Origin: a bacterium
GTDB taxonomy: Bacteria; Sysuimicrobiota; Sysuimicrobiia; Sysuimicrobiales; Thermofontiviventaceae
DNA length: 64,000 bases
NCBI GenBank assembly: GCA_030550015.1
Contig: JAUQQG010000117.1
Span: 1-64,000 of the forward strand
Direction: 5' to 3'
The notes beneath the pieces are model-generated. The model saw nothing but the letters and a program-made list of their open reading frames with translations. It was not told where the DNA came from and ran no database searches. The position numbers and the translations under genes are program-made. This document shows, piece after piece, positions 26,747 through 30,723 of the stretch; position 1 is the stretch's first letter, and the number at the start of each line of letters is the position of its first letter.

Positions 26747-27583
26747 ATGCTCTTGGCAGCCCAGGCTGGTAGCCTCCTTACGCGTATCCGCGAAACTCGC
26801 CCTTTGGTCCACCACCTTACGAACTTCGTCGCGATGAATGACGTAGCGAACGTCACCCTTGCCACTGGTGCGCTCCCGATCATGGCCCATGCTCCCGAGG
26901 AGATGGAAGAGGTCGTTTCTGCTGCCTCCGTCCTTGTACTCAACCTAGGCACATGGACGCAGGAGAGATGGGACGTGATGCTTCTTGCGGCACGCATCGC
27001 CAACAGGCGTGGGATCCCGGTTGTCCTGGATCCCGTGGGCGCGGGGGCCTCTCGAGTTCGTACGGAGAGTGCACTCAAGCTCCTCCGCGAGAAGCGTGTC
27101 ACCGTGGTAAGAGGCAATCGGGGAGAGATCGCCTACCTCACGGGGGCGCTCGCGAGCGTCAGGGGGGTGGAGTCCCTGGGGTCGGACGTCCCTCCCCAGG
27201 ATTTGGCCCAAACCCTGGCCCGGGAACATGGGTGCATTGTTGCGGTTACGGGCCCGCGCGACTGGATCAGCGATGGGAAACGCCTCCTCGCCGTGGACAA
27301 CGGGCACCCCCTCCTCCAGAGAATCACCGGTTCCGGGTGTATGGCCACGGCGGCCATCGGCTGTTTTCTCGCTGTCCCCGGAGATCCTCTCATCGGCACC
27401 GCCGCAGCCCTGGCCTATTTCGGGTACGCTGCCGAGCTGGCAGCGAGGGATTCCAAAGGGCCAGGGAGTTTCCGGGTATCTCTGCTTGACCACCTTGCCT
27501 TGCTCGATGCAGCTTCTCTGGAGGCAGGGGCGCGGATCCTGGAGGATTTCGATCCTGGTGGAGGGCCTCAGGGATCCGGGTGA
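26747..27583 (+). CDS. thiM: Hydroxyethylthiazole kinase
   Basis: A 278-residue ribokinase-fold enzyme that phosphorylates 4-methyl-5-(2-hydroxyethyl)thiazole for thiamin salvage. Seen: HHLTNFVAMNDVAN near the start, LDPVGAGASR in the middle and the phosphate-binding ITGSGCMATA motif near residue 196 with its catalytic Cys. Coupled to thiW. Its last 16 bases overlap the convergent polymerase gene. Confidence 0.95.
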   Translation: MLLAAQAGSLLTRIRETRPLVHHLTNFVAMNDVANVTLATGALPIMAHAPEEMEEVVSAASVLVLNLGTWTQERWDVMLLAARIANRRGIPVVLDPVGAGASRVRTESALKLLREKRVTVVRGNRGEIAYLTGALASVRGVESLGSDVPPQDLAQTLAREHGCIVAVTGPRDWISDGKRLLAVDNGHPLLQRITGSGCMATAAIGCFLAVPGDPLIGTAAALAYFGYAAELAARDSKGPGSFRVSLLDHLALLDAASLEAGARILEDFDPGGGPQGSG

Positions 27584-29763
27584 GGAAAGCCCGCGAGGAC
27601 GCCGAAGGGGGAGAGCAGCGTCTTCGCTGCTTCCAGGACGAGCTCGCTGTATTTCTGCACATCGTAGCTCCAGCCGTCCTGCAGGAGAGCCCACGGCTTG
27701 GCCCGCTCCTCGGGAATCCTGCTGCGGAAGTCGGTGATGACGTACTGTACGGCCTCTCCAGGGTGAAGCCGGACCCCGCGGCGGGCGAGCTGGCGGGCAG
27801 CGATGGCGAGGAGGGTTTCGTGGGTGTAGGACTCCGGGGGTTTGGAGAGCACCTGTTGGATGACGAGGTCCCTCAGCGTGACGTCGCCGTCTCGCAGCCG
27901 TGCCAAGAAGGTTTCCACCACAGCGACCACTTCAGGGAGCCGCTCTTGGAGTTCGTGAAGGGTGCTGGCGGAGGCCAGGACCTCCACCATGCGCTGTTGC
28001 GCCTCCCGCACAATGGGGGGGAGGTCCGAACGCCGGAGCTCAATCCCCCGCACTTTTACAGTCCCGTCCTCGAAGACGCCCACGAAGCGGTTAGGGACCC
28101 CCAGGCGACGACGGATCCTGGACGGGATGAAAGCGATCCAGCGATAACGACCCTCTAGGAGGATGGGAATCCCTGTGGCCTCTGTGATCTCCTGAACCAA
28201 CGCCTCCACCTCCTCTGGGCAGCTGCCAGCCTTATGGATCCAGAGGGAATCCACGATGGCATGGAGGAGGCGGAATCCCCGTGACTCGGCGAGTTCTTTC
28301 GCCCGCAGCAACAGCTCCCGGCTGTAGGCAGTAACGGCTTCGTGCGCCTCGATCCTTCCGAACCGGGCGTTCCGGTATCCGAGGTAACCGAAGCACGTCA
28401 CAAGACACCACTTCAGGGCGTTCTGGCGGTGCTCGTAGACTATCCGCTCCTCCCCTGGGGTCTGCCGCATGAGGTGCTTGTAGGCAAGACGTTTCTCAAT
28501 CAGCGGCGCGAGCACCTGGGGGATCAATCCCTTCCTCCTCCGGCACACAGAGTACCCAATCTCCGGAACGCGGTGGTCTGGGCAACACGCGCATCCCAGC
28601 GTCTCGGGGGAGATGTTGAACCGCGCCATGATCATGGGGTACATCGAGGCAAAATCCAGCTCAAACACGTCCTCGTAGACGCCGATCGGAGGAAGGTAAA
28701 CGAGCCCCCCTTTGTCCGTACGGAGGAGTTCGAGGGCCGACTTGAACTCCTCGGCCTGGCGTTTCCGCCAGGGGATGAGGATCCCCTGGCGGACCGCCGT
28801 GTCCAGCTGCATGGAGGTGATTGCCGTCCCTGTGGTGGTCCGCGCGAGGCGTTGTACTGGGATCTTTGCTAGGCGAGCGACCTCCACCAACCCTTCGAGG
28901 CCGCTCTCCCCCATCAGGAAAGAGTTCACAGTATCGACGTGCAACCGCCCTCTGAAGAGTTGGGCTCCTGCACGATAGACCCACCGGCCGTACGTGTAAA
29001 AAGAGTACCCTCGCCGAGCTAAGGTCGTCCGCTCGCGGTTGAATGGAAGGGGAATCCCAGTCATCCGGCTGAGGCGCTCCAGCCGGGGGATGAGGAAGGA
29101 ATCCCCCCACTCCGTCAGGATGATGTCGGGGTCGTACCGGGTGAACAGCGAGCGCAGGCTCTCCAGGAGATCTACGGGCCCGTCCCCATCGAGAACGATG
29201 GTCTGCCCCTCTATCGTTGCCTCCAGGAAACTCCTCCGGCCGTGGGGGGCGATGATCGGGTCTCCCTCCAGCCGGAGGTGAATCATGGTGAGGGGCGGAA
29301 GGTGGTAGGAGAGATCCCAGGGGGAGTCCTCCAGTGCAATGGCTTGGACGGTTCCCTGTTCGTGCTCGATGGCGCAGCGGGCCAAGGGGAAGAGGCCGGA
29401 CTCGTAAAAGTAGAGCTGCTCCAGAGGGATGTCCACGTTGAATAGCTCTATCCCTGGGATGTTTGCAACCAAGCGCACCATGGAAGGGAAGTGCGCAGGC
29501 GAAGTTGTCAGCTCGATCACAGGCCGCTCCCTTCCACTGAAGAAGTCGACCCTGCTGGTCGTGCGCAAAGTCACGGGGGCGCGGCATCGCTGGAGAACGG
29601 CCTCCACCTGGCGGCGTACCCTTGGAGGACCATCGGCATAGCAACGGAGGGAGACAGGGTGGGTGAGGCGGAGGCGGCGGCCTTGCCCGTCTATGAGCCA
29701 GAGGACCATCCCTCTCTCCCCAGGGTAGGCGTCAAGGATCCACGCGGTGATCTGCTCGCCCAC
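27568..29763 (-). CDS. Degenerate family-B DNA polymerase (PolB2-like)
   Basis: A 731-residue B-family polymerase, well off the E. coli Pol II type. Polymerase motif A is intact (DFASMYPMIM). Motif B, normally KxxxNSxYG, reads KWCLVTCFGYLGY, and motif C, normally YGDTDS, reads HAIVDSL, keeping only the second Asp. The exonuclease domain is present but Exo I (LRLEG) and Exo II (TEWGDSFLI) lack the usual Asp residues, so proofreading is probably lost. A Cys cluster (CACC, later C) sits between motifs A and B. GTG 29763 is taken because GGAGAGG lies 5 bases upstream. Third gene of the SOS-type operon; likely a translesion enzyme or a scaffold. Confidence 0.85.
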   Translation of the reverse strand: MGEQITAWILDAYPGERGMVLWLIDGQGRRLRLTHPVSLRCYADGPPRVRRQVEAVLQRCRAPVTLRTTSRVDFFSGRERPVIELTTSPAHFPSMVRLVANIPGIELFNVDIPLEQLYFYESGLFPLARCAIEHEQGTVQAIALEDSPWDLSYHLPPLTMIHLRLEGDPIIAPHGRRSFLEATIEGQTIVLDGDGPVDLLESLRSLFTRYDPDIILTEWGDSFLIPRLERLSRMTGIPLPFNRERTTLARRGYSFYTYGRWVYRAGAQLFRGRLHVDTVNSFLMGESGLEGLVEVARLAKIPVQRLARTTTGTAITSMQLDTAVRQGILIPWRKRQAEEFKSALELLRTDKGGLVYLPPIGVYEDVFELDFASMYPMIMARFNISPETLGCACCPDHRVPEIGYSVCRRRKGLIPQVLAPLIEKRLAYKHLMRQTPGEERIVYEHRQNALKWCLVTCFGYLGYRNARFGRIEAHEAVTAYSRELLLRAKELAESRGFRLLHAIVDSLWIHKAGSCPEEVEALVQEITEATGIPILLEGRYRWIAFIPSRIRRRLGVPNRFVGVFEDGTVKVRGIELRRSDLPPIVREAQQRMVEVLASASTLHELQERLPEVVAVVETFLARLRDGDVTLRDLVIQQVLSKPPESYTHETLLAIAARQLARRGVRLHPGEAVQYVITDFRSRIPEERAKPWALLQDGWSYDVQKYSELVLEAAKTLLSPFGVLAGFPHPDP

Positions 29764-30019
29764 GATTCCTCTCCAGGGAATCCAGCCTGCGTTCAAGAGA
29801 TCGCACCCGCTTGAGTGTCTCGAGGAGCATGCAAACCAGCATCGTTTCGAAGGGAACTGGGTGGCTGGCATAGGCGGCTTCGGCAGAATGGTGCCGTGCT
29901 GCTTCAAACAGCTCATCCAGGACCTCCTGGTCCTCTCGCCGCAACGCCCTCCGGAACGGCATCCAGCGCTCGATCTCTTCCAGAACGAGGTTGGTCATGG
30001 TACGCAGCGTCCGTCCCAT
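29732..30019 (-). CDS. Small helical protein of the polymerase cassette
   Basis: A 95-residue acidic-and-basic, all-helical product I do not recognise. ATG 30019 follows AAAGGAGTGAGGTGCG. It begins 6 bases after the RecA-like gene stops and overlaps the polymerase start by 32 bases, so it is translated in step with both. The C-terminus has a coiled-coil-like run (LLETLKRVRSLERRLDSLER). The place and size suggest an adaptor joining the RecA-fold protein to the polymerase; that is inference. Confidence 0.75.
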   Translation of the reverse strand: MGRTLRTMTNLVLEEIERWMPFRRALRREDQEVLDELFEAARHHSAEAAYASHPVPFETMLVCMLLETLKRVRSLERRLDSLERNRGRADHRVDP

Positions 30020-30025
30020 CGCACC

Positions 30026-30673
30026 TCACTCCTTTCCTCTTTGGGAGTACCCCCAGACGAATCTCTTCGAGATCCTGCTGGCGTGGTTAGGATGTTCCTG
30101 GAGCACGAGGTAAGAACCATCGCCTGTTGCCTGAATACGCAAAATCCAAGAGGCCAGGCGGCGCAGCAATGGGAACAAGTGGGCCTCCCGGGATCGTTCC
30201 ACGGGGCTCGGGCAGGCGACGAGAAGATGGCATCGGCGTTTGACCAGGCGCTGGAAAGTCCAGAGAATCCCTCTGAAGATACGATGTGCCTCCGGGTTGG
30301 GCACAGCTTCGTCCCCGAACAGGTCCAGGAGGCCGAGGAGGAGGACTGGGCTGGCCTCCCCACAGAGGGCAGGGAGGCGTTTGGTGATTAGGACCTCAAG
30401 CTGGTGTACGGTGAAAGCCCTGGCGATGCTGACGCGAGCCAACCATCGTTCAGGGATCTCCCCCGCTGCCCTCGCCGCGTCGGAGATGATGTAGGGATCA
30501 AAGGCGTTCCCAGCGTCCACGACGATCAGGTGAGAAGCTCGTCCTTGTCCTGGTTGCCTTCTCTCGAGGAATGTGCGGGCGGTAGTCCACATGGCAACGG
30601 TCATGCATGTGTGGTCCCCGCAAAAGAGGACCAGTTCACCATAGCTGAGAGGAAAAAGGTCTAGAAAGTTCAT
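30026..30673 (-). CDS. RecA/RadA-fold protein lacking Walker A
   Basis: A 215-residue protein with the RecA/Rad51-like core: a strand with VVDAGNAFDPYII corresponding to the IDTEgtFrperi segment, IARAFTVHQLEVLI as in RadA, and PVLLLGLLDLFGDE at the Walker B strand. The P-loop position reads CGDHTCMTVAM with no GKT/S, and the Walker B Asp is replaced by Gly, so ATP hydrolysis is doubtful. First gene after a LexA-box promoter. By analogy with ImuA, a RecA-like partner of an SOS polymerase, it may target the polymerase to RecA-coated DNA. Confidence 0.75.
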   Translation of the reverse strand: MNFLDLFPLSYGELVLFCGDHTCMTVAMWTTARTFLERRQPGQGRASHLIVVDAGNAFDPYIISDAARAAGEIPERWLARVSIARAFTVHQLEVLITKRLPALCGEASPVLLLGLLDLFGDEAVPNPEAHRIFRGILWTFQRLVKRRCHLLVACPSPVERSREAHLFPLLRRLASWILRIQATGDGSYLVLQEHPNHASRISKRFVWGYSQRGKE

Positions 30674-30694
30674 AGGCGCACCCGGTCTGAGGTT

Positions 30695-30723
30695 ATTATA
30701 TCGAACTTATGTTCGCATGTCAA
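30695..30723 (-). promoter_or_regulatory. Consensus sigma-70 promoter of the polymerase cassette
   Basis: On the minus strand TTGACA (30723-30718) and TATAAT (30700-30695) are both perfect consensus hexamers, separated by exactly 17 bases. The -10 is 21 bases before the RecA-like ATG, leaving a very short leader. No other promoter in the window is this close to consensus, as expected where a strong repressor holds it off. Confidence 0.9.
30702..30715 (-). promoter_or_regulatory. LexA (SOS) box
   Basis: CGAACATAAGTTCG: perfect 5-base arms CGAAC and GTTCG with a 4-base spacer, the Gram-positive-type LexA site. It lies wholly within the 17-base spacer between -35 and -10, so LexA would occlude RNA polymerase. 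Controls the RecA-like/small protein/polymerase operon. Confidence 0.9.

Follow-up and report, generated by a model that had tools for sequence, protein, structure and literature searches.

A probable SOS-regulated PolB2 mutasome operon from a Sysuimicrobiota bacterium

The 64,000-nucleotide stretch of contig JAUQQG010000117.1 analysed here (the window) comes from a bacterium of the phylum Sysuimicrobiota (CSP1-3) and carries an operon of three genes, which encode an inactivated RadA/Rad51-like ATPase (iRadA), a small helical protein (PPB2) and a family-B DNA polymerase (PolB2). As read from the sequence, one promoter serves all three genes, and a LexA-type operator is buried in that promoter. 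We interpret the operon as an SOS-regulated PolB2 mutasome, which in Sysuimicrobiota probably fills the place held by ImuA-ImuB-DnaE2 in sister genomes. We give this explanation a probability of about 0.88.

The first-pass annotation of this DNA had described three tightly coupled genes behind one promoter, with a perfect LexA-box palindrome in it. Both statements were confirmed: gene order and tight coupling are as described, with 6 nt between the iRadA stop codon and the PPB2 start and a 32-nt overlap of PPB2 and PolB2, the two promoter hexamers agree with the consensus in all 12 positions (the chance expectation in the region is 0.6 sites with at least 9/12 matches), and the palindrome lies wholly within the spacer (Table 1). 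Shine-Dalgarno-like sequences were recognised for PPB2 (AAAGGAG) and for the GTG codon at 29763 (GGAGAGG), from which PolB2 is read. The polymerase start chosen earlier, an ATG at 29916 giving a protein of 782 aa, had to be rejected; it falls well within PPB2, homologues give it no support, and the relatives of PolB2 align from residues 2-6 of the 731-aa GTG-started form.

Table 1. Features of the iRadA-PPB2-PolB2 operon (window coordinates)
Feature	Position	Strand	Description
sigma-70 type promoter	30695..30723	-	TTGACA 30723-30718, 17 nt, TATAAT 30700-30695; 12/12 consensus positions
candidate LexA operator CGAACATAAGTTCG	30702..30715		perfect palindrome, wholly within promoter spacer
iRadA	30026..30673	-	215 aa; inactivated RadA/Rad51-like ATPase; lacks the N-terminal domain and the Walker A GKT
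PPB2 (arCOG07300-like)	29732..30019	-	95 aa; small helical protein; N-terminal MGRT arm
PolB2	27568..29763	-	731 aa from GTG; family-B DNA polymerase; degenerate DxD (HAIVDS), exonuclease motifs lost

The promoter region upstream of iRadA contains a perfect CRAACN4GTTYG motif in 18/18 Sysuimicrobiota PolB2 genomes with upstream DNA, often between TTGACA-like and TATAAT-like hexamers. The motif occurs 29 times in the 920 kb of all PolB2 loci, a set in which some loci represent the same genome twice, and about 24 of these occurrences are at the iRadA promoter. As in an SOS regulon, the operator overlaps the promoter, and the 2.65-Mb genome to which the window belongs has sites of the same class (CRAACANNNGTTYG) upstream of lexA (CGAACAAATGTTTG) and recA (CAAACATATGTTTG). 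Further sites of this class lie upstream of dnaB, dnaE, recF and a small RNase H-like gene (names read off translations, not from family searches), and control matches were few. No perfect E. coli-type LexA box (CTGT-N8-ACAG) occurs in the window, and sites with one mismatch to it are at chance level there.

Two of the additional sites deserve separate mention. The promoter of dnaB (L056, G000 C62:11104) is a consensus one and holds CGAACAAATGTTTG in its spacer, so that LexA seems to control a replicative helicase. A consensus promoter whose spacer holds CAAACAAATGTTCG likewise precedes the gene for the RNase H-like protein of 155 aa (L060, G000 C80:71828), and this gene is a candidate for a new member of the SOS regulon.

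Outside this phylum most bacterial operons have lexA itself as their first gene; in 29 loci (Nitrospirota, Desulfobacterota, Rokubacteria and others) it precedes the set on the same strand, mostly adjoining iRadA. Where the loci of other bacterial phyla extend far enough upstream, Chloroflexi L080 is one without lexA at that place. In the window's lineage the link to lexA is therefore through the operator rather than through adjacency. For operons of other phyla that begin with lexA, a simple palindrome scan of the DNA before this gene found no recurring operator. In the archaeal locus L114 a LexA-like box, 121 nt ahead of the iRadA domain, was discarded: the relatives have a related, non-palindromic sequence at this place, and the box is probably coding sequence, the archaeal iRadA being N-terminally longer.

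The three genes keep together far beyond this phylum. The first-pass annotation had staked the set on co-occurrence elsewhere, and among the 76 PolB2 loci found by scanning GTDB genomes, order and strand (iRadA-PPB2-PolB2) were identical in all 62 loci whose contig carries the complete set, from archaea to bacteria. In a tree of 69 PolB2 sequences, built with no PolB1/PolB3 outgroup, archaea and bacteria separate, and the window sequence falls in the bacterial clade, at the base of the Sysuimicrobiota clade. PolB2 is present in 22/43 Sysuimicrobiota genomes, and its history broadly follows that of the phylum.

The polymerase matched the Pfam DNA_pol_B family (E = 1.3e-36) and, with E = 6.6e-130, the NCBIfam type B DNA polymerase models; identity to homologues is 47-54%. 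The NCBIfam match, the position in the bacterial PolB2 clade and the substituted DxD motif bear out the earlier description of a degenerate PolB2-like enzyme. Three elements do not vary in the alignment with same-phylum relatives: motif A (ELDFxSMYP; ELDFASMYP at residues 368-376 of the window protein), motif B (KW-FGYLGY) and the second catalytic Asp. Ile or Leu replaces the first Asp of DxD in the aligned PolB2s, where the motif reads HA(I/L)(V/T)DS (HAIVDS at residues 501-506 of the window protein). The canonical ExoI motif is D-I-E. As read from the alignment, the exonuclease motifs of PolB2 are lost: ExoI is D-I-P, and ExoII (WGDSFL) lacks the catalytic Asp. The D(K/R) motif is present as D350-K351 and is invariant in the PolB2 alignment.

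Some PolB2 genes are interrupted at motif B by inteins, inserted between residues 456 and 457 (window numbering). They were seen in several Sysuimicrobiota and in one Nitrososphaerota archaeon (carriers L037, L112 and L135; also G019, G030, G031 and G033), and include mini-inteins of about 160-210 aa as well as full ones with LAGLIDADG domains.

PPB2 starts with an invariant Met1-Gly2 followed by Arg3-Thr4, which are >90% conserved in 32 homologues; the MGRT start is kept in nearly all of them, from Bathyarchaeota to Nitrospirota. Its AlphaFold2 model is all-helical (predicted local distance difference test score, pLDDT, 88.2), and a comparison of the model with the PDB gave no significant fold match. 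iRadA had been described as having a RecA fold, which had to be changed to RadA/Rad51: the family match is weak (RadA hidden Markov model, E = 0.0024), and the best fold matches of the AlphaFold2 model (pLDDT 87.4) in the PDB are to the ATPase cores of RadA, Rad51 and Dmc1 (lowest E value 4.6e-11). An alignment of 33 homologues revealed neither the Walker A GKT with its lysine nor the Walker B aspartate.

The distribution of PolB2 in the phylum was compared with that of the ImuA-ImuB-DnaE2 mutasome, using as queries ImuB and DnaE2 from a PolB2-negative relative, whose operon was read as an ImuA-like gene, a Y-family gene and DnaE2. ImuB was found in 16/21 PolB2-negative and in 0/22 PolB2-positive Sysuimicrobiota genomes (Fisher p = 7.7e-8 by genome and 4.6e-4 by genus, both uncorrected for ancestry). 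All 16 ImuA operons have a box at the corresponding place, CGAACN4GTTCG in seven and the one-base variant CGAACN4GTACG in nine (L147-L155), suggesting that LexA specificity has shifted in the families with the variant. Two PolB2 genomes (G015 and G020) and one with an ImuA operon (G024) have three upstream neighbours in common, namely DUF4331, TPR and HupE/UreJ-like genes, which suggests that the two operons were exchanged at one place.

In the window's genome ImuB was not found, and the DnaE2 query gave only a DnaE1-type match. The genome G005 combines PolB2 with a DnaE2-like gene directly behind the LexA box CGAACGCATGTTCG (L157, G005 C56) and has a Y-family gene on the same contig; no ImuB of the searched family was found in it. 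Among 148 Nitrospirota genomes DnaE2 is present in three, none of them a PolB2 carrier, which is too rare to test the exclusion. From the near-identical operator, from the fact that ImuB and PolB2 never occur together, and from at least one lineage pair seemingly swapped in the same neighbourhood, we consider it an even bet that in Sysuimicrobiota a single LexA-controlled place can be taken interchangeably by either of two mutasomes that are unrelated to each other, PolB2-PPB2-iRadA of archaeal type and the bacterial ImuA-ImuB-DnaE2.

The palindrome in the promoter might be the site of another regulator or a product of chance, with the operon outside the SOS regulon. The bare palindrome (CGAACN4GTTCG; CGAACNNNNGTTCG as such) is indeed not enriched in the 2.65-Mb genome, which has two palindromic sites compared with six per strand in the reversed control, and because of this the case for a LexA operator rests on position and conservation. 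Its place in the spacer and its retention at the same operon in every Sysuimicrobiota genome with upstream DNA rule out a chance palindrome; and the boxes that this genome has at its lexA and recA genes, the same or one-base-variant box at all the imuA operons of sister genomes, and the lexA genes heading the operon in other phyla speak for LexA rather than for another regulator, so that we regard this explanation as very improbable. A somewhat better, still small chance is given to PolB2 being a dead polymerase, which would scaffold iRadA and PPB2 at stalled forks or regulate replication. The replaced first Asp of HAIVDS and the lost exonuclease motifs fit this possibility, and removal of stalled forks or regulation of replication has been discussed for inactivated archaeal polymerases (Makarova 2014, PMC4104785). 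A pure scaffold would, however, have no need of the motif A, motif B and second Asp that are invariant in these proteins.

The substitution part of our interpretation meets a stronger competitor, according to which the exclusion of PolB2 and ImuA-ImuB-DnaE2 reflects shared ancestry without functional replacement. On a DnaE1 tree (frames picked by homology) PolB2 requires 4 changes and ImuB 5. The independent pairs on this tree are all opposite or show no difference, but they number only 3-4, the sign test is not significant, and ancestry alone therefore stays a serious contender, to which we allow slightly less than an even chance. It also draws on the uniform families f4 (PolB2) and f6 (ImuB or none), on the broad agreement of PolB2 with the history of the phylum and on the rarity of DnaE2 in Nitrospirota. 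What speaks against ancestry is that both states occur within families f2 and f5, that the distribution needs 4-5 changes, that no genome has PolB2 and ImuB together, and that the shared neighbours of G015/G020 and G024 point to an exchange at one place.

Some observations weigh against the SOS-regulated mutasome as a whole. The exclusion behind its substitution part is based on just those 4-5 changes, with too few independent pairs for significance. No QLxLF-like beta-clamp motif was recognised near the C-terminus of iRadA or PolB2 by eye, without a profile search. The window's genome also encodes a Y-family DinB-type polymerase, and PolB2 is for this reason not the sole candidate translesion enzyme. 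The earlier reading, in which an error-prone polymerase of PolB2 type works with an adaptor and a RecA-like partner under SOS control, agrees, at the level of sequence, with everything that was tested.

In the mechanism that we propose, LexA bound to CGAACATAAGTTCG would block the promoter; upon DNA damage RecA would be activated, LexA would be cleaved and the operon transcribed. PolB2 would bind iRadA by a Rad51-type oligomerisation motif, and a trimer of PPB2 would place one MGRT arm near the PolB2 active site. The resulting PolB2-iRadA-PPB2 complex would have no proofreading and would extend primers whose ends are distorted or mispaired, getting past lesions in this way. We infer all these steps, from repression and induction to the assembly of the complex and translesion bypass, on the basis of the operator, the archaeal enzyme and published models. 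The Y-family polymerase and PolB2 may divide the labour as inserter and extender, a division which has been studied for Sulfolobus Dpo4 and Dpo2 (PMC8721586).

The neighbours of the operon are ordinary genes: the divergent one encodes a Memo-like protein, the convergent one a hydroxyethylthiazole kinase. Elsewhere in the window's genome a DUF72 gene is divergent from lexA (L061 566-1363), and in other Sysuimicrobiota genomes a DUF72 gene is convergent and directly downstream of polB2; DUF72 near polB2 has been recorded before (Timinskas 2025, PMC11791011).

The gene set is not new; it belongs to an error-prone polymerase complex, archaeal in origin, that is already on record. An operon of PolB2, arCOG07300 and an inactivated RadA, accompanied by lexA in some bacteria and with a probable role in the damage response, was proposed in 2014 (Makarova 2014, PMC4104785). 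In 2025 PPB2 and iRadA were named, the single bacterial order iRadA-PPB2-PolB2 was described, and a heteropentamer PolB2-iRadA-PPB2(3), in which the D(K/R) motif contacts PPB2 and the MGRT arm has its place, was modelled and compared with Pol V (Timinskas 2025, PMC11791011). In the literature that we compared, the bacterial PolB2 mutasome is known from operon structure and models only, and we did not find there the phylum-wide conservation of a LexA operator, the alternation of PolB2 with ImuA-ImuB-DnaE2 or the inteins at motif B of PolB2. The operator, perfectly kept across the phylum, is direct sequence evidence for a bacterial PolB2 in the SOS response. The alternation suggests that an archaeal polymerase can assume the job of a bacterial mutasome, and makes functional equivalence a testable question.

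Among known systems, the UmuD'2C-RecA complex (Pol V) is likewise multimeric and SOS-controlled, and its polymerase is associated with a small subunit and with a protein of recombinase fold. It differs in its Y-family polymerase, in UmuD', the product of a LexA-like protease, and in its true RecA partner; the open reading frame list and the Pfam and NCBIfam profile searches showed no UmuC or UmuD gene in the window operon. ImuA-ImuB-DnaE2 has in common with the operon a LexA box, a RecA-superfamily partner, an adaptor and an error-prone polymerase, and its place in sister genomes is LexA-controlled in the same manner, but it consists of a C-family polymerase, a Y-family adaptor and a RecA-like ImuA, none of which is in the window operon with its family-B enzyme. 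Sulfolobus Dpo2, also a PolB2, is a damage-inducible translesion polymerase with extender activity, required for targeted mutagenesis, in an organism whose damage response is regulated by an Orc1/Cdc6 homologue (both summarised in PMC11791011). Its degenerate active site, lost exonuclease and operon with a RadA-like gene and arCOG07300 resemble the window, whereas it is archaeal and not LexA-controlled. The closest likeness is to the published PolB2-PPB2-iRadA mutasome, which shares the three families, the bacterial gene order, the MGRT arm, the substituted DxD, the D-K motif, the inactive RadA and the link to LexA. The window operon departs from it in being without lexA, in having its operator in the promoter spacer, in its Sysuimicrobiota host and in that no clamp motif was recognised by eye, a motif which only part of the family has in iRadA or PolB2 and which does not define it. 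Because it shows every clearly testable published feature, the operon is, judged by its sequence, clearly a member of this known kind, new in Sysuimicrobiota, and not a new kind.

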